From assembly GCF_041821045.1 (NCBI RefSeq), contig NZ_JBGUAW010000013.1:1-64000 (forward strand): 64,000 nucleotides of DNA. Direction: 5' to 3'. Within the stretch, counting starts at the first letter, position 1, and every line of letters begins with the position of its first letter. Under the pieces are notes generated by a model. The model was not told the DNA's origin. It was given only the letters and a program-made list of their open reading frames with translations, and did not search any database. This document shows, in pieces, positions 35,942 through 62,640 of the stretch. The stretch comes from Thiohalorhabdus sp. Cl-TMA. GTDB taxonomy: Bacteria; Pseudomonadota; Gammaproteobacteria; Thiohalorhabdales; Thiohalorhabdaceae. The position numbers were made by a program, and so were the translations under genes.

Positions 35942-36967
35942 CCCTTGCGGTCCGTGTCCAGAGCCGGGACAATGGGAACGTTCTCTTTTCGTTTTCAAAG
36001 CGGGCCGTTGGGACCCTCCCCCATGGACCACGATCAAAACTTCAAGAACCTGATCCTCGACTACCCGGAGCAGGCCCTGGCCTTTTTCGCTCCGGAGGAG
36101 GCCGCGGGCCTGGATGCCGCGGCCCGCGTCCTGCCCATTCGCCAGGAGCAGATCAAGGACCGCCTGAGCGACCGCTTCCGGGCGCTCGACATCCCGCTGC
36201 TGGGGGAATGGCCGGACGGCCAGCGGGCCCTGTTGCTGTTCGTCATCGAGGAGGAGACCGATCCGCGGCGGTTCTCGCCGCACCGTCTGGCCCGCTACTG
36301 CCTGGATCTCGCCGAGCTGTTCGAGACGGACCGGGTCGTGCCCGTGGTGGTATTTTTGCATAAGGGGGCGCGGGCCGGGCCCCTCCGCCTCGGCGGGGAC
36401 CGGCATACCTACCTGGATTTTCGCTACCTGGCCTGTCCCCTGGCCGAGCTCCCCTTCGAGCGGTTCCGTGCCAGCGACAACCTGGTGGCCCGGCTGAACC
36501 TGCCGAATATGGCCTATCCCGCCACCGCCAAGCTCACCGTCTACCACGCGGCCTTCCAAGGCCTGCTGCAGCTGGAGCCCGACCCCGACCGCCAGGCCAA
36601 GTATCTGGATTTCGTGGACCTGTATGCGGCACTTACCCCCGAAGAACTGGCAGAATACCGGCAGCACTATCCCGAGGAGGTGGAAGCCATGACCACGTTC
36701 GCCGAGCGGCATCGCAAGGAAGGCCTCGAACAGGGCCTCGAACAGGGCCTCGAGCAAGGCCTCGAACAGGGGATTGAACAAGGTATCGAGCAGGGCATGA
36801 AGAAGGGGGAGCGCGCCGTGCTACTGCGCCTCATCGAGCGCAAGTTCGGCCCGGAGGCGGCCGCCGCCCACCGGACCCGCATCGAGCACGCGGATCCCGA
36901 CACGCTGCTCGCCTGGTCGGACAACCTCCTGACCGCGGAGTCCGTCGAGGAGGTCTTCCGGGAATAG
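35942..36967 (+). repeat. 1-kb dispersed direct repeat, copy A
   Basis: Includes the Rpn-like gene and about 80 bp upstream (AACGTTCTCTTTTCGTTTTC is shared). Near-identical to copy B at 55639-56671, in the same orientation about 19.7 kb away. Confidence 0.85.
36023..36967 (+). CDS. Rpn family (YhgA-like) putative nuclease with DUF4351, copy A
   Basis: A 314-residue protein. The N-terminal part resembles the Rpn/PD-(D/E)XK family: ALLLFVIEEETDPRRFSPHR followed by LARYCLDLAELFE corresponds to the family's strand-E-x-E/Q region. Middle motifs include HTYLDFRYLACPLAELPFER. Near residue 230 a helix of GLEQ/GIEQ tetrapeptide repeats (12-bp units) leads to a C-terminal DUF4351 segment (LLRLIERKFGPEAAAAHRTR). 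Rpn proteins are recombination-promoting nucleases, often mobile and multicopy. The start is the ATG at 36023 because the same ATG is conserved in copy B. It lies 97 bp after the cysteine hydrolase gene on the same strand. Confidence 0.88.
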   Translation: MDHDQNFKNLILDYPEQALAFFAPEEAAGLDAAARVLPIRQEQIKDRLSDRFRALDIPLLGEWPDGQRALLLFVIEEETDPRRFSPHRLARYCLDLAELFETDRVVPVVVFLHKGARAGPLRLGGDRHTYLDFRYLACPLAELPFERFRASDNLVARLNLPNMAYPATAKLTVYHAAFQGLLQLEPDPDRQAKYLDFVDLYAALTPEELAEYRQHYPEEVEAMTTFAERHRKEGLEQGLEQGLEQGLEQGIEQGIEQGMKKGERAVLLRLIERKFGPEAAAAHRTRIEHADPDTLLAWSDNLLTAESVEEVFRE

Positions 36968-47796: not shown

Positions 47797-48039
47797 ATGC
47801 CCACCCTGACGGCCAGTGAAGCCCGCTCCCAGCTTTACCGCCTGATCGACCAAGTCGCCGAATCCCATGAACCGACATTGATCAGCGGCAAGCGGAATAA
47901 TGCCGTGATCCTGTCCGAAGATGACTGGCGTACCATTCAGGAGACGCTGCACCTGCTCGCCATACCGGGGATGCGGGAATCGATTCACGAGGGTATGGAA
48001 ACGCCGATCGAGGAATGTGATCAGGGTCCCGGGTGGTGA
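47797..48039 (+). CDS. yefM: YefM-type antitoxin
   Basis: An 80-residue antitoxin of the Phd/YefM family: MPTLTASEARSQLYRLIDQV, then ISGKRNNAVILSEDDWRTIQ, then a helix IPGMRESIHEGMETPIEECD that wraps the toxin. The pattern matches E. coli YefM closely. Start ATG follows CAGGAG. It overlaps the YoeB gene by 7 bp, ensuring antitoxin-first translation. A short palindromic patch (GTACG...CGTAC near 47748) lies upstream and could be the autoregulatory operator. Confidence 0.95.
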   Translation: MPTLTASEARSQLYRLIDQVAESHEPTLISGKRNNAVILSEDDWRTIQETLHLLAIPGMRESIHEGMETPIEECDQGPGW

Positions 48040-48299
48040 CTTGGCGCCTCGTTTACACCAAACAGGCGCAAAAAGATGCCAAGAAGCTCGCGAGCACCAA
48101 CCTGAAGCCCAAGGCCCAGGAACTACTGGATCTCCTGGCTGATGACCCCTGGACCTCCCCGCCCCCTTACGAAAAGCTCGTTGGGGACCTGGAAGGTGCC
48201 TCTTCCCGCCGAATCAATATCCAGCATCAGCTCGTCTACCAGACCCTCGAGGAGGAGAAGACGGTAAAGATCCTGCGGATGTGGACCCACTACGAATAG
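48033..48299 (+). CDS. yoeB: YoeB-type mRNA interferase toxin
   Basis: An 88-residue toxin of the Txe/YoeB family that cleaves mRNA in the ribosomal A site. Visible family features are WRLVYTKQAQKDAKKLASTN, DPWTSPPPYEKLVGDLEGAS, SRRINIQHQLVYQ, and the catalytic C-terminus RMWTHYE with the His-Tyr pair. The GTG start at 48033 overlaps yefM by 7 bp (a second GTG follows immediately). The gene appears intact and full length, so the pair is probably functional. Confidence 0.95.
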   Translation: MVTWRLVYTKQAQKDAKKLASTNLKPKAQELLDLLADDPWTSPPPYEKLVGDLEGASSRRINIQHQLVYQTLEEEKTVKILRMWTHYE

Positions 48300-55395: not shown

Positions 55396-55723
55396 GCATG
55401 CTCCCGGGGTTTGCACGGTGCTTCGAAGGGGCTGGGAAGGATACCAGGACAAAGCGGGGACAGTCCTCCTATCGGCCAGGCTATCGGAGCCACGGGCTTT
55501 GCGTCCCCTCACAAGCCGGACACCGCTCCCCACAGAGCCCCCATGGGCGCCCAAATGGCGGCAGCAAAATCGCGCCTGCGGACAAAAGTCGAATGGAGGA
55601 GACATCCGGAAACCGTTAGTCCGGGCACCCGGTTGTCCCGCCCTTGCGGCCCGGGCCGAGATCGGCAACAATGGAAACGTTCTCTTTTCGTTTTCATCGC
55701 GTACCCTCGAGGCCCCCTGCCCC
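55396..55723. other. Divergent intergenic region
   Basis: About 330 bp between the small barrel gene and copy B of the Rpn-like gene. Its right end (from about 55639) belongs to the dispersed repeat. No additional gene was recognised. Confidence 0.4.
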
Positions 55724-56671
55724 ATGGACCACGATCAGAACTTCAAGAACCTGATCCTCGACTACCCGGAGCAGGCCCTGGCCTTTTTCGCTCCGGAGGA
55801 GGCCGCAGGCCTGGACGGCGAGGCCCGCGTCCTGCCCATTCGCCAGGAGCAGATCAAGGACCGCCTGAGCGACCGCTTCCGGGCGCTCGACATCCCGCTG
55901 CTGGTGGAATGGCCGGACGGCCGGCGGGCCCTGTTGCTGTTCGTCGTCGAGGAGGAGACCGATCCGCGGCGCTTCTCGCCGCACCGCCTGGCTCGCTACT
56001 GCCTGGACCTCGCCGAGCTGTTCGAGACGGACCGGGTCGTGCCTGTGGTGGTCTTCTTGCAGCCGGGGGAGCGGGCGGGGCCCCTTCGCCTCGGTGGGGA
56101 CCGGCATACCTACCTGGACTTTCGCTACCTGGCCTGCCCCCTGGCCGAGCTCCCCTTCGAGCGGTTCCGTGCCAGCGACAACCTGGTGGCCCGGCTGAAC
56201 CTGCCGAATATGGCCTACCCCGCCACTGCCAAGCTCTCCGTCTACCACGCGGCCTTCCAGGGCCTGCTGCAGCTGGAGCCCGATCCCGACCGCCAGGCCA
56301 AGTATCTGGATTTCGTGGACCTGTATGCGGCACTTACCCCCGAAGAACTGGCAGAATACCGGCAGCACTATCCCGAGGAGGTGGAAGCCATGACCACGTT
56401 CGCCGAGCGGCATCGCAAGGAAGGCCTCGAACAGGGCCTCGAACAGGGCCTCGAGCAAGGCCTCGAACAGGGGATTGAACAAGGTATCGAGCAGGGCATG
56501 AAGAAGGGGGAGCGCGCCGTGCTACTGCGCCTCATCGAGCGCAAGTTCGGCCCGGAGGCGGCCGCCGCCCACCGGACCCGCATCGAGCACGCGGACCCCG
56601 ATACCCTGCTCGCCTGGTCGGACAACCTCCTCACCGCGGATTCGGTGGAAGAGGTCTTCCAGAGCACTTAA
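55639..56671 (+). repeat. 1-kb dispersed direct repeat, copy B
   Basis: Same orientation as copy A (35942-36967) and near-identical over the whole gene and its upstream leader. It could recombine with copy A to delete or duplicate the 19.7 kb between them. The 3' part is duplicated once more in tandem at 56719-57012. Confidence 0.85.
55724..56671 (+). CDS. Rpn family (YhgA-like) putative nuclease with DUF4351, copy B
   Basis: A 315-residue paralogue of the gene at 36023-36967, differing at only scattered positions (for example LLVEWPDGRRALLLFVVEEE instead of LLGEWPDGQRALLLFVIEEE). It has the same GLEQ x4 / GIEQ x2 repeat helix and the same DUF4351 end (PDTLLAWSDNLLTADSVEEV). The ATG at 55724 is conserved with copy A. 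The gene is intact. Its presence twice within 20 kb, plus a third partial copy directly downstream, marks this family as actively duplicating here. Confidence 0.88.
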   Translation: MDHDQNFKNLILDYPEQALAFFAPEEAAGLDGEARVLPIRQEQIKDRLSDRFRALDIPLLVEWPDGRRALLLFVVEEETDPRRFSPHRLARYCLDLAELFETDRVVPVVVFLQPGERAGPLRLGGDRHTYLDFRYLACPLAELPFERFRASDNLVARLNLPNMAYPATAKLSVYHAAFQGLLQLEPDPDRQAKYLDFVDLYAALTPEELAEYRQHYPEEVEAMTTFAERHRKEGLEQGLEQGLEQGLEQGIEQGIEQGMKKGERAVLLRLIERKFGPEAAAAHRTRIEHADPDTLLAWSDNLLTADSVEEVFQST

Positions 56672-56709: not shown

Positions 56710-57027
56710 GTGGAGTCGGCGGAATACCGGCAGCACTACCCCGAGGAGGTGGAAGCCATGACCACGTTCGCCGAGCGGCATCGCAAGGAAGGCCTCGAAC
56801 AGGGCCTCGAGCAAGGCCTCGAACAGGGGATTGAACAAGGTATCGAGCAGGGCATGAAGAAGGGGGAGCGCGCCGTGCTACTGCGCCTCATCGAGCGCAA
56901 GTTCGGCCCGGAGGCGGCCGCCGCCCACCGGACCCGCATCGAGCACGCGGACCCCGATACCCTGCTCGCCTGGTCGGACAACCTCCTTACTGCGGATTCG
57001 GTGGAGGAGGTATTCAAAGGGATGTAA
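56710..57027 (+). pseudogene. Tandem 3' fragment of the Rpn-like gene
   Basis: A partial copy starting at EYRQHYPEEVEAMTTFAERH and running through the repeat helix to the DUF4351 end (VEEVFKGM). It lacks the N-terminal nuclease-like half. It has three GLEQ units where the full copies have four, a 12-bp contraction. A GTG at 56710 leaves it open-ended as a 105-residue frame, but it is best regarded as a duplicated fragment of copy B. Confidence 0.8.
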
Positions 57028-57252: not shown

Positions 57253-60200
57253 TCAATTCGCCGCGGGACCGGTCCAGCCCAGAATAGCCGCAGCTATACG
57301 TCGCTCCGGTGGCTCCTTCTCGGGAACCGTCCGGAAGGCCGCAAGCGCCCGAGGACCAAGCTCGGCCTCCTGGGCAATAAGATCGTCGCGAATGTCGGCA
57401 AGAAGCAATGGGCGGGCGCGCCTGGGCTCCCCGAGCCGGCGGTACCAAACGGGGCGGACCAGCTCAAGCCACCGGGTGGCCACAATCTCCCAGTCGGGGC
57501 TTCGGTTCCCATCCGGCCGTTCCAGGACATCGCGTACCGCTCGATAAGCCTCCAGAGCCGGTTGGTCCCGCCGGCTTGATGCAGCTCGTTCAAATCCAGC
57601 GAGCACCGCCCCCATTTCGGTCAAGGCCCGCTGCTTCTTGCGGGGAAGCAATCCGCGCTCCGCTTCGGCCAGCCGGTCAACAAAGCGACCGAGGGTCTCG
57701 GCAGCGGATTGGTCAAGCGCCATGCTGCCAGTATCCGATGCCAGCCGGCGTCGTAAGCCATCACTGACCGCCTCCAGGGTGGTCTGGGGCTCCTCGTCGA
57801 GGCTGGGCAGGAGGATCCACCGTGGGGCTCGCTCCCCGCTTCCGGCCAGGCAAAAGAACGCCCAGGGGGTATCGGTCGGAACCACGCTCACTCGCGCCAT
57901 TACCCGGGCACTAACCGTCCGATAGTGTTCATAGGTGGCCGCGTCCACCAAGGCCTGCGGGCCTTCAACCAAGCCACGCACCGACTCGAAGGCGTCCTCC
58001 ACCTGTCCCGTTTCCGCGAAACGGGCGGCCTTTTCGTATTCGGTAATAAGGGTCTCGGTAGGTACCGACTCGCCGCTAGTCCGCTGCAGGGCCTCGGGAA
58101 GGGGCAAGTTGGAGCCGAGCAGCTGATCTACTGCGGCGTGGCGCTGCACGAAACGCTCGTCGGCGGTCAGCGCGAAGGCGGGATCGTCCCGAGGCCACCA
58201 CACCTCAATGCGGGGATGGGGACTATCCATACGGTCGACACGGCCGGTGCGCTGCTCGGCCACCCGCACAACCGACGGCATATCGAGGTGCACCAGCGCG
58301 GAGGCGGCTTGCAGGTTTGCACCTTCAGCGAGGCTGTCGGAGCATAAAGCGATTCCCTCCTGCCCTTCCCTGCCGGGCCGAAACCCCCGCAGGACGGCTT
58401 CCCGTTCCGCTTGTCCCCCCGAGCCCGTAGCCACCCAAATCCTCGCCTCGGGATCAGCCGCCAATAGGAGCGCCCGGATATGCGCCAGGGTAATGAGCGT
58501 ACTATCGAAAGCCAGCAATCGCTCGTGATGGCGGGTCAAATTTCGCAGGTGTGCCACTTTGGCCCGCTCTCGGGCTGGTGAAAGCGCACGGGCCTCTTCC
58601 AGGATCTGCTCCAGGATATCCGCATCATGGTCACAGGCCGCCGCATGGGCCGCGGAATCCGTCAGCCAAGCCGGCGGATCTACATCCAAGTGGTTCTCAG
58701 GGGGATGACCGCGAAGCCCGCGAACGGTGGCGATTACGGCTCCGGTATCGTCGGGCTTGTGGAAGCCCTCCAGGCTGAAGGCCTCGCGGGCGACTTCGGT
58801 ACCCGCAAGATGCTCCACCAAAGCGGGCCGCGAGGAGCGCATGGCGGCCAGAATCCGGTACTGGCTGAGGCGGGACGCCGACAGCAGCCGGCTTTCCAGG
58901 TACTTGGTCGCGTCCCATCCTTGCTTCTGGAGCACCACCGGAAGCTCTAGCCGTCCGGTAAGCTGACCCACCCCGTAGAGCTGGGAGGCGAGCGCTCGAA
59001 TACGCCGAGCACCCGAACGGTCAGCCTCCACCTCGTCGAGGTCGTAGGTGCGGGGCACATGCTCCGGGAACCGGCAGGGCCGACCGGCATAGTCCCGGTA
59101 GGCGTCGGGCTCCCGATCGATGAGGGCGTTGAACATGCGCTTGGTGCGCCGGACGGTAAACTTGCGGATCTCGGCGCGTAGAGCGCCGGCTTCCTGAGGC
59201 GTGAGGCCATCCCGATTGCCTCGCGCCCGCAGCATCTGCTGGAAGGCCTCCAGGGTAACTGGTTCAAGGTTGTCGGCGCCCAGCAGATCCGCCACCCGGA
59301 TCAGATCCTGGGGGCCACGGTTAATGGGCGTCGCGGTGAACAGCAAGACATGGTCGGCCATGTGGTGCAGCAACTGGCGGGAGCGGTTGGACCCCTGGTT
59401 ATTAAAATTGTGGGCCTCATCCACGCACAATAGGCGGGATTGGCGCAGGGCCATGAGCAAGCGCTGGTGGCGTTCGCCACGGGAATGGCTCAGATGCCCA
59501 TGAGAAAAAGTGCGCAATGCGGCACCGGCGGTTAGGGCTTCTCCGTCCCATTCGGACTCCACGGCTGGCGGCCCGATCAGCACACCGCCGTCATGTCCCA
59601 AGGCCCCCGACCGAACGAGCCGATCCTGCACTGCTCGGATCAGATGGGCCCCCATGCGCGTCTTGCCCGAGCCCGTGGCGTCCGCCACCAGCACACTGCC
59701 CTGCCGATCGAGGATATACAAGGCCTGGGCGATGCCCTGCCGCTGGGCCGGCCACAAGGCCTCGAAACCGGACGGATCCATCGTTCGCAGCAGTGCCTGT
59801 GCCCAGCCTCCCTCGAGCAGCTCCGCAGCCGCCCGCGCCAGCGCCTCCTGCCAATCCACCACCTGCAGCAGGCGATCCAGGAGCTCGAGTAAGCGCTCAT
59901 CGAAAGGGGTCCCCAGCGCCCAATAGTTCTCACCGATCTCCCGGGCTTCCCGATAACGGCGGGCTTCGCCGGAGCGGGTAAAGCGGGCATTGGCCTCCCA
60001 CTGCCGGACGAGGCCGCTGGCGGAGAAATTGCTTGAGCCCAGGATTGCCGCATCGTCACCGATGTAGAGCTTGGCGTGGAGCTGACGGCGATCCCCGGCC
60101 AGGTAGCGGGTAGTGATACAGCCCGTGCGCAGCCGTTCCCGGAAAGCGAGAAGCCGGGCCGAAAGCCGCAGGGAGATGCCCCGTTCCAACCAGTAGCGCT

Positions 60201-60522
60201 CGACTGCTTCCGGGAAGGAACGCCCGCCCGGCTCGATAGTTTCGAGCCGATCCGTTAGAGGTTCCGTACCAAACAGGATGCGCAGCGGGCCTTCCGTCGT
60301 CAGCTCGGCGGTGGTGTCCAGGAGATGCGCCAGGGCGGCAAAGCCGGTAACCACAAGCGGTTCGGCAGAGCCGGTCAGATCGGCGGTGACCGTATCCTGG
60401 ACCCGCGCCCCTGCGTGATTCAGGGGGAAACGTTCGGCGGGTGGCCAGGCTAGCTCCGCATCCGACTCCCGACCAGCCTCCCCATCACCGAAGAGATCCA
60501 GGGTGTGGCTTACCATAGCCAA
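57253..60522 (-). CDS. PLD-nuclease / SNF2-type helicase, defence-like
   Basis: A large 1089-residue protein. The N-terminal phospholipase D-type nuclease domain (about residues 60-230) has the HxK motif QLHAKLYIGDDAAILGSSNF, plus a Ser-rich partner. It is followed by a superfamily 2 helicase: Walker A VLVADATGSGKTRMGAHLIR, DEAH box LLCVDEAHNFNNQGS, HVLLFTATPINRGPQDLIRV, later ALCSDSLAEGANLQAASALV and the arginine finger motif RVAEQRTGRVDRMDSP. The C-terminal 300 residues are unassigned. PLD plus SNF2-like helicase in one chain is typical of phage-defence or restriction-like factors. It stands alone, in an area rich in TA and IS remnants, and looks intact. Confidence 0.9.
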   Translation of the reverse strand: MAMVSHTLDLFGDGEAGRESDAELAWPPAERFPLNHAGARVQDTVTADLTGSAEPLVVTGFAALAHLLDTTAELTTEGPLRILFGTEPLTDRLETIEPGGRSFPEAVERYWLERGISLRLSARLLAFRERLRTGCITTRYLAGDRRQLHAKLYIGDDAAILGSSNFSASGLVRQWEANARFTRSGEARRYREAREIGENYWALGTPFDERLLELLDRLLQVVDWQEALARAAAELLEGGWAQALLRTMDPSGFEALWPAQRQGIAQALYILDRQGSVLVADATGSGKTRMGAHLIRAVQDRLVRSGALGHDGGVLIGPPAVESEWDGEALTAGAALRTFSHGHLSHSRGERHQRLLMALRQSRLLCVDEAHNFNNQGSNRSRQLLHHMADHVLLFTATPINRGPQDLIRVADLLGADNLEPVTLEAFQQMLRARGNRDGLTPQEAGALRAEIRKFTVRRTKRMFNALIDREPDAYRDYAGRPCRFPEHVPRTYDLDEVEADRSGARRIRALASQLYGVGQLTGRLELPVVLQKQGWDATKYLESRLLSASRLSQYRILAAMRSSRPALVEHLAGTEVAREAFSLEGFHKPDDTGAVIATVRGLRGHPPENHLDVDPPAWLTDSAAHAAACDHDADILEQILEEARALSPARERAKVAHLRNLTRHHERLLAFDSTLITLAHIRALLLAADPEARIWVATGSGGQAEREAVLRGFRPGREGQEGIALCSDSLAEGANLQAASALVHLDMPSVVRVAEQRTGRVDRMDSPHPRIEVWWPRDDPAFALTADERFVQRHAAVDQLLGSNLPLPEALQRTSGESVPTETLITEYEKAARFAETGQVEDAFESVRGLVEGPQALVDAATYEHYRTVSARVMARVSVVPTDTPWAFFCLAGSGERAPRWILLPSLDEEPQTTLEAVSDGLRRRLASDTGSMALDQSAAETLGRFVDRLAEAERGLLPRKKQRALTEMGAVLAGFERAASSRRDQPALEAYRAVRDVLERPDGNRSPDWEIVATRWLELVRPVWYRRLGEPRRARPLLLADIRDDLIAQEAELGPRALAAFRTVPEKEPPERRIAAAILGWTGPAAN

Positions 60523-61193: not shown

Positions 61194-61619
61194 CTAACCA
61201 CCCCCACCCCACGGATTAACCACCTCCAACGACAGCCCGGCGAAGTCCTCGACATTACGCGTCGCCAGCTTAGCCCCCCGGCAAATGGTAATGGCCGCGA
61301 TCTGGGCATCGGCCATGCTGATGGGGCGCCCTTGCGCTTGGCGCCGCGTGACAAGCCCGGCATACACCTCCGCCTCCTCGGCGCCGAAGGAAAGCACCCG
61401 GTCCCCGAATTCCTCCTCAAACATGGTCCTTGCCAGGGCCTGGAGCATTTCCTTGCGCTGGCCGTCATCCAGACGCTCGATCCCGTAAAGAACCTCGGCG
61501 ACGGTAAGGGCGGTCACCGCCAGCTCTCCCGCCGGCCAGCCATCCACCCAAGCGACCACTTTGGTATTGGGCGCCGGGCGCATCAGCTCCGAGACAACGT
61601 TGGTGTCGAGGACGATCAT
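61194..61619 (-). CDS. PIN-domain toxin (VapC/FitB type)
   Basis: A 141-residue PIN ribonuclease. The metal-binding residues are visible: MIVLDTNVVSELMRP (Asp5), AVTALTVAEVLYGIERL (Glu), SMADAQIAAI (Asp) and KLATRNVEDFAGL (Asn/Asp). This pattern is closest to FitB. The start codon overlaps the antitoxin stop by 4 bp. It is intact and likely functional, cleaving RNA when free of the antitoxin. Confidence 0.93.
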   Translation of the reverse strand: MIVLDTNVVSELMRPAPNTKVVAWVDGWPAGELAVTALTVAEVLYGIERLDDGQRKEMLQALARTMFEEEFGDRVLSFGAEEAEVYAGLVTRRQAQGRPISMADAQIAAITICRGAKLATRNVEDFAGLSLEVVNPWGGGG

Positions 61620-61861
61620 TCCCGGAAGTCCGGCGAGCGGGGCGGCTCCTGCCGTTCAGGGGACGGCAGCTCGCAGCCACCGACCCCCTGGAACCGGCCC
61701 ACGATGCGGCTTCCCACCCCCTGCTCCAGCGTGGATGGGGCCACAGCCTGCCGGAGGATGTGTCGGACCTCCTCCTCCATGGACCGGCCATGCCGGGCGG
61801 CCTCGATTCGCAGCCGGTCCTTTACCTCGTCATCCAGGTTCCGAATGGTCAAATTCGCCAT
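61616..61861 (-). CDS. RHH antitoxin (FitA/VapB-like)
   Basis: An 81-residue antitoxin. The N-terminal ribbon-helix-helix domain NLTIRNLDDEVKDRLRIEAA continues RHGRSMEEEVRHILRQAV, and the C-terminal tail rich in Gly, Glu and Pro binds the PIN toxin. The ATG at 61861 begins the RHH strand. A perfect 25-bp palindrome 14 bp upstream is the expected self-binding operator. It is translationally coupled to the PIN toxin. Confidence 0.92.
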   Translation of the reverse strand: MANLTIRNLDDEVKDRLRIEAARHGRSMEEEVRHILRQAVAPSTLEQGVGSRIVGRFQGVGGCELPSPERQEPPRSPDFRE

Positions 61862-61874
61862 GGGCAGCACCTCT

Positions 61875-62000: not shown

Positions 62001-62640
62001 TCACTCCGGGTTCAGCCCAACCGGCCCTGCCGGGTTCCAATTCCGGCTTTTGCCACTCCAAACCCTCGGGTTTTCCGCCTTGACCCGCGCATAGATGGCC
62101 CGACGCTTGGCCAGGATGGCCACACCCTCGCCGTTGTACGCTGGTGCGGCGTGACATACCCAATGCGGCTGTGCCGGTTTTCCTCGTTGTACCAGCGGAC
62201 GAAACTGTAGACCCAGGAGCGCGCTGCCGCCAGATCCGCGAACCCCTCGGTAGGGAAATCCGGCACGTACTTGCAGGTTCGGAATATTGCCTCCGCGAAG
62301 GCGTTGTCGTTGGAGACCCGCGGCCGGCTAAAGGACGTCGATCTCCAGGCGGCGCAGGGTCTCCAGCATGGTGGCCCCTTTCATGGGGGAGCCATTGAGT
62401 GCGCTACCGTCGGCTGATTGCTGCAGCCCTCGGCTAGCACGGCCCGCTCGACGACGTCAGCGCCCCAGGGCGGCCGACTCTCGGACATGGACCTCTCAGC
62501 CTGCTCAATCTTGCGCGGGTACAGGTCCGGGATCAGGAACAGGCAGTAAAACGGCCCCCGTACGAGAACGGGGGGCCAGGTAACGTCCCAAGACCCAACC
62601 TCGCAGGGCCTGTCCGCCCGGGTGGTCCGGCCACCCAGGG
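62001..62640 (-). pseudogene. IS3-family transposase (OrfB) remnant
   Basis: A DDE transposase in several frames. GSWDVTWPPVLVRG (about 62615-62574) has the first catalytic Asp and runs in frame into LYPRKIEQAERSMSESR, then VVERAVLAEGCSNQPT. A 4-bp deletion removes the second-Asp motif (HSDNGSP becomes HSMAPP) and shifts the frame. NGSPMKGATMLETLRRLEI, VSNDNAFAEAIFRTCKY and FVRWYNEENRHSRIGYVTPH continue in other frames, and the end PRVWSGKSRNWNPAG finishes at 62001. The type differs from the fragment at 48640-48960. Its front is fused in frame to the exonuclease remnant. Confidence 0.78.

Follow-up and report, generated by a model that had tools for sequence, protein, structure and literature searches.

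A PLD nuclease-SNF2 motor fusion in Thiohalorhabdus sp. Cl-TMA as a candidate stand-alone restriction or defence nuclease

A single long reading frame that joins a nuclease-like domain to a helicase-type motor raises the question of whether its product defends the cell against foreign DNA, serves as one half of a restriction-modification (RM) pair or belongs to the housekeeping machinery. The window analyzed here, meaning the whole stretch of 64,000 nucleotides from contig NZ_JBGUAW010000013.1 of Thiohalorhabdus sp. Cl-TMA, carries this gene on the minus strand at positions 57253..60522 (1089 codons). The frame begins with a TTG at 60522, with an alternative ATG at codon 3, and is the second longest in the window; 30 shuffles produced frames of 526 aa at most. 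Its length compared with the shuffles, together with full-length relatives that share both its length and its order of domains at 45-57% identity to the window protein, establishes that this is a real gene. From the N- to the C-terminus, the order of domains is a PLD nuclease, an SNF2-type SF2 motor and an orphan C-terminal region.

The PLD nuclease domain covers residues ~31-200 (59923..60432, minus strand), as indicated by PLDc_2, RE_NgoFVII and BfiI/SauUSI profile matches. In the Pfam search of the window protein alone, the PLDc_2 match in the N-terminal part was slightly under the cut-off. The assignment is nevertheless firm because family members also matched PLDc_2 (7 of 7, best E 1e-07) and the PLD family of the NgoFVII restriction endonuclease, RE_NgoFVII (5 of 7, best E 6.8e-05). 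Searched against solved structures, the profile of the PLD region matched a virion nicking-joining enzyme at E 3.1e-06 and the restriction enzyme BfiI (2c1l) at E 0.0021; its match to SauUSI (7clg) was weak (E 0.066). Sequence and conservation define a single active-site motif, HxK(x)4D(x)6GSxN, at residues 149-165 (60028..60078, minus strand), in which H149, K151, S163 and N165 are invariant in 10 of 10 aligned copies; position 156 holds D or E in nine of these copies and A in one.

Mid-chain Pfam matches to SNF2-rel_dom, ResIII, DEAD and Helicase_C, combined with solved structures and conservation, placed the first RecA lobe of the motor at residues ~251-470 (59113..59772, minus strand, boundaries approximate), with the motifs GSGKT, DEAH and TATP, and the second lobe at residues ~641-810 (58093..58602, minus strand), with Helicase_C and the motif QRTGRVDR. 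Mean pairwise identity within the family was 0.576 and 0.581 for the two lobes and 0.479 for the segment between them, residues ~471-640 (58603..59112, minus strand), which was delimited from the family alignment. The GKT, DExH, TAT and QRxGRxxR motifs are kept in all alignment rows that have letters at those columns. Judged by its sequence, the region of residues ~251-810 is a complete Swi2/Snf2-type SF2 motor. The Pfam matches and the conserved motifs thus bear out the first-pass annotation, which had described an HxK nuclease of the PLD type joined to a complete SF2 helicase in one chain of 1089 residues.

The same annotation had left about 300 residues at the C-terminus unassigned, and this description held, as no usable Pfam or PDB match was obtained for residues ~811-1089 (57256..58092, minus strand). 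Among the large regions of the protein, these 279 residues have the lowest conservation within the family (mean pairwise identity 0.428). The Pfam matches of the C-terminus in seven members, collected at E up to 10, included no TRD or modified-base-binding family, and hhalign gave no match of this region to RapA or to a set of distant PLD-SNF2 proteins (E 0.53 for the latter). A fold for binding DNA or modified bases is not recognisable in it. Weak Pfam matches to Sdh5, seen in three of the seven members with a best E of 0.0054, and to PP2C_2, seen in one (E 0.0065), were taken as chance. Predicted structures were poor both for the C-terminal region alone (pLDDT 42.9) and for the full-length protein paired with a partner sequence, L001 (pLDDT 33). 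No model searched in Pfam, NCBIfam and PADLOC covers the family together with its own C-terminus, for which we propose a role as a sensor or target-recognition part.

This architecture suggests that the protein is probably a stand-alone, ATP-dependent DNA restriction or defence nuclease that works like SauUSI, and an anti-phage role is plausible. Two chains would probably come together at their PLD domains and build a single cutting site between them, a dimer suggested by the presence of a single HKD motif, as in BfiI and SauUSI (PMC7913695). The SNF2 motor, given its intact motifs, would bind and then track along double-stranded DNA with ATP. Foreign or modified DNA is probably recognised by the C-terminal region or by the inter-lobe segment, which would thereby license the motor and the nuclease; by position, the C-terminus would be the likeliest recognition site, as SauUSI has its recognition domain at the C-terminus as well (PMC7913695). 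A narrower version of this proposal, a one-gene restriction enzyme made of a PLD dimer, an SNF2 motor and a new C-terminal sensor for DNA modification or structure outside the known modified-base-binding folds, is offered only tentatively.

The distribution of the family was examined in several samples. Counting the window's own genome, members were present in 10 of the 369 genomes of the class sample, and one Thioalkalivibrio MAG also has a member, for a total of 11 loci; seven copies are full length and the remaining copies are cut by contig ends. Among the 398 genomes of the phylum sample, none except the window's own matched strongly and two matched weakly (E 3.2e-20 and 6.8e-11), and 289 genomes of another class gave no match at E up to 1e-30 with a query that had no positive control there. 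IMG/VR contained no relative when queried with the protein and with the alignment, phage records gave zero relatives, and plasmid records gave partial domain matches only, none reaching 80% coverage.

Neither of the two congeners carries the gene (one of these genomes is 82% complete), and a search for congener synteny via a gene neighbouring the PLD-SNF2 gene found no clear orthologue. Elsewhere, the order of G333 has the gene in one of 11 genomes and the order of G266 in two of three. G266 and G361 belong to one genus; over the shared parts, their copies are 77-87% identical at the DNA level, but no ORF that flanks the gene on the G361 contig, which is short, has a match in the flanks of G266. 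Its absence from both congeners and the differing surroundings in two species of another genus indicate that it is a mobile accessory gene, and they agree with the first-pass annotation in placing a stand-alone PLD-SF2 fusion in a variable, accessory location. Third-position GC is 0.728 in this gene and 0.763-0.927 in 16 comparison genes, every one of which also fits the codon usage of the window better.

The surroundings in the window had been described as crowded with toxin-antitoxin pairs, IS remnants and duplications, and all three kinds of feature were recovered. Pfam identified a FitA-like RHH antitoxin and PIN toxin pair (FitAB/VapBC-type) at 61194-61870 and, at 62012-62266, an insertion-sequence remnant with an integrase core (rve_3); a RelBE-like pair at 47797-48299 was recognised by eye only. 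Two direct-repeat pairs bracket the PLD-SNF2 gene, 50906-51166/62624-62884 (91%) and 49161-49284/63877-64000 (74%), with spacings of 11.7 and 14.7 kb, as if neighbouring small genes had been duplicated. Additionally, a gene of ~1 kb is found in two copies 20 kb apart (35942-36959 and 55641-56660, 94% identity), and its 3' part, which contains EQGLEQG repeats, is again tandem-duplicated at 56350-56659 and 56718-57015. None of the genes next to the PLD-SNF2 gene of the window was recognised as a methyltransferase.

Neighbours across the 11 loci were collected as ORFs no shorter than 150 aa within 10 kb of the gene. The picker used was naive, including wrong-strand ORFs and missing some real genes, and gave 91 ORFs on 12 stretches (the G266 locus being split in two). 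The control set comprised 89 ORFs on 12 stretches from 9 genomes, with the MAG unrepresented and two intended G333 stretches nonexistent. With a limit of E 1e-15, matches to 133 PADLOC families were obtained for the neighbour ORFs and to 5 for the control ORFs, whose best match had an E of 1.6e-32. From the best 25 of the 133 families, at least 10 neighbour proteins could be assigned, five of them at one locus, and because half of the assigned proteins come from that locus the contrast at the level of loci is not strong. In these neighbourhood statistics, which the first-pass annotation had proposed, RM genes lie within 10 kb at 3 of the 11 loci, and adjacent to the gene at two; counted by stretch, the comparison stands at 5 of 12 for the gene and no more than 5 of 12 for the controls.

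At individual loci, HsdR lies ~80 bp upstream and an Mrr-like restriction nuclease 7 bp downstream of the gene in G021, where OLD and further defence-type genes are also found upstream; in G141, a type III Mod-Res pair lies upstream with a gap of ~50 bp, and in the Thioalkalivibrio MAG HsdM is found nearby, upstream. Also within 10 kb of the PLD-SNF2 gene are an LmuA-like gene in G265 and a SoFic-like one in G224. At L044, 3704-8405, patatin-like and caspase-like genes (both identified by eye) and an LmuA-like gene stand in a row adjoining a PLD-SNF2 copy. No assignable defence gene was found at 6 of the 11 loci, the window included, and some of the contigs of these six end near the gene. Among the 91 neighbour ORFs, no family recurred except one HipA-like pair seen twice, and no type IIG/PglX-like methyltransferase was a recurrent neighbour. 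Since no methyltransferase recurs, the protein would most likely discriminate self from non-self on its own, in the manner of type IV restriction.

The RM genes at some loci bring up a different explanation, in which the protein would be the restriction half of a classical RM pair that cuts unmodified DNA, its methyltransferase being encoded elsewhere in the genome or in a neighbouring RM operon. Type I or III RM genes adjoin 2 of the 11 copies, a type IIG methyltransferase adjoins distant PLD-SNF2 relatives in both cases scanned, and an SWI2/SNF2-nuclease accompanied by a COG1743 methyltransferase is described in PMC7641849. However, the RM neighbours vary from locus to locus, with the HipA-like pair as the sole recurrent neighbour, and the window copy has no recognised adjacent methyltransferase; we regard a classical RM half as unlikely. 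The stand-alone gene, the orphan C-terminus and the toxin-antitoxin genes near the window copy are also consistent with an infection-triggered or abortive effector that would cut both host and phage DNA once its C-terminus senses a phage cue. Such a role appears distinctly improbable, as direct DNA restriction is indicated instead, both by the presence of an SNF2 motor and by the relatives of the PLD domain (BfiI, SauUSI and NgoFVII).

Even less probable would be a RapA-like helicase that carries an additional nuclease and has a housekeeping role in DNA repair or the recycling of transcription complexes. The whole-family profile matched 44 solved structures, SauUSI (7clg) being absent from them; RapA and 1z63, a snf2/rad54-family helicase, are among those matched by the motor. 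Against this, the hhalign similarity to RapA is confined to the motor (E 8.9e-12), leaving the C-terminus unmatched, the family is rare and patchily distributed, and the surroundings of the gene differ between the congeners G361 and G266. A RapA-like identity was rejected, the RapA model scoring 33.8 bits against a cut-off of 576 with no match in the C-terminus. The conserved location of a housekeeping repair helicase, which the first-pass annotation had named as the outcome that would speak against a defence factor, was not what the distribution and the surroundings revealed, and the stand-alone restriction or defence nuclease remains the preferred reading.

Regarding novelty, the first-pass annotation had argued that in known systems PLD is either joined to an SF1 helicase within one protein or encoded apart from the helicase, and that the present arrangement could be a distinct type. 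Mokosh is a single protein in which PLD is combined with an SF1 helicase. The argument fails, however, on SauUSI, a PLD-SF2 single chain (PMC7913695), on the PLD-SNF2 fusions already published (PMC7641849), and on family models in NCBIfam and PADLOC, which already contain PLD anti-phage, PLD-helicase and HKD+Snf2 entries. In open-licence PMC text, no paper was recognised on this exact PLD-SNF2 family.

SauUSI, a type IV enzyme (7clg), is described as a PLD, an SF2 ATPase, a coupler and a TRD in one chain (PMC7913695). The present family has in common with it the single chain, the N-terminal PLD, the SF2 ATPase that follows and a C-terminal part, and it differs in having an SNF2-type motor, no recognisable TRD in the C-terminus and a whole-family profile that misses the SauUSI structure. 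The SWI2/SNF2-PLDc fusions reported in 2020 belong to a predicted restriction system with a COG1743 methyltransferase and DUF499 (PMC7641849). The fusion of an SNF2 motor to a PLD nuclease and the predicted restriction function are shared, but that system is an archaeal multi-gene operon, no such partners were recognised here, and the comparison is one of descriptions only.

Distant single-chain PLD-SNF2 proteins of 1100-1170 aa were also compared. An alignment of seven of these proteins is co-linear with the family over 800 columns (hhalign E 4e-52, ranges from local mode, no realignment), and the PLD region alone matched the same set at E 5.6e-16. In both members scanned (2 of 7, on L047 and L053), the next gene encodes a type IIG enzyme-methyltransferase, and the resulting two-gene units lie at L047 7424-14192 and L053 5418-12289. 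These HKD+Snf2 C3a139-like loci of PADLOC share the co-linear PLD and SNF2 parts with our family but differ in the C-terminus and in the methyltransferase that follows, none being recognised at the window copy.

In the comparison with defence-system profiles, also proposed in the first-pass annotation, the best named models for the window protein are anti-phage helicases, DpdE (95.1 bits, cut-off 500) and DrmD (63.5 bits, cut-off 610), but both scores are far below the cut-offs. No named model scores higher than DpdE for the motor, and there is a weak DpdK-type PLD match, although the two activities are in separate models in Dpd and fused here; membership in Dpd was rejected on the curated DpdE cut-off. 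Likeness to DISARM consists of the SNF2 motor and a weak PLD similarity (DrmC), and membership was likewise rejected, with DrmD under its cut-off and no separate DrmA match in the genome, where the sole match to the DrmA model PDLC02572 is the PLD-SNF2 gene itself (E 2.5e-5). MZB/DUF1998 proteins of the genome are on other contigs. NCBIfam NF042964, a phospholipase D-like domain-containing anti-phage protein, resembles the family in its PLD by name, and its weak match falls in the second motor lobe (28.6 bits, cut-off 1100); no gene in the genome scored above that cut-off. If the proposed function is correct, an SNF2 motor and a PLD nuclease that are separate genes in DISARM and Dpd would be united here in one chain, providing a compact system for studying motor-nuclease coupling and self/non-self discrimination, and pointing to an undescribed C-terminal recognition part within an architecture that itself has precedents.
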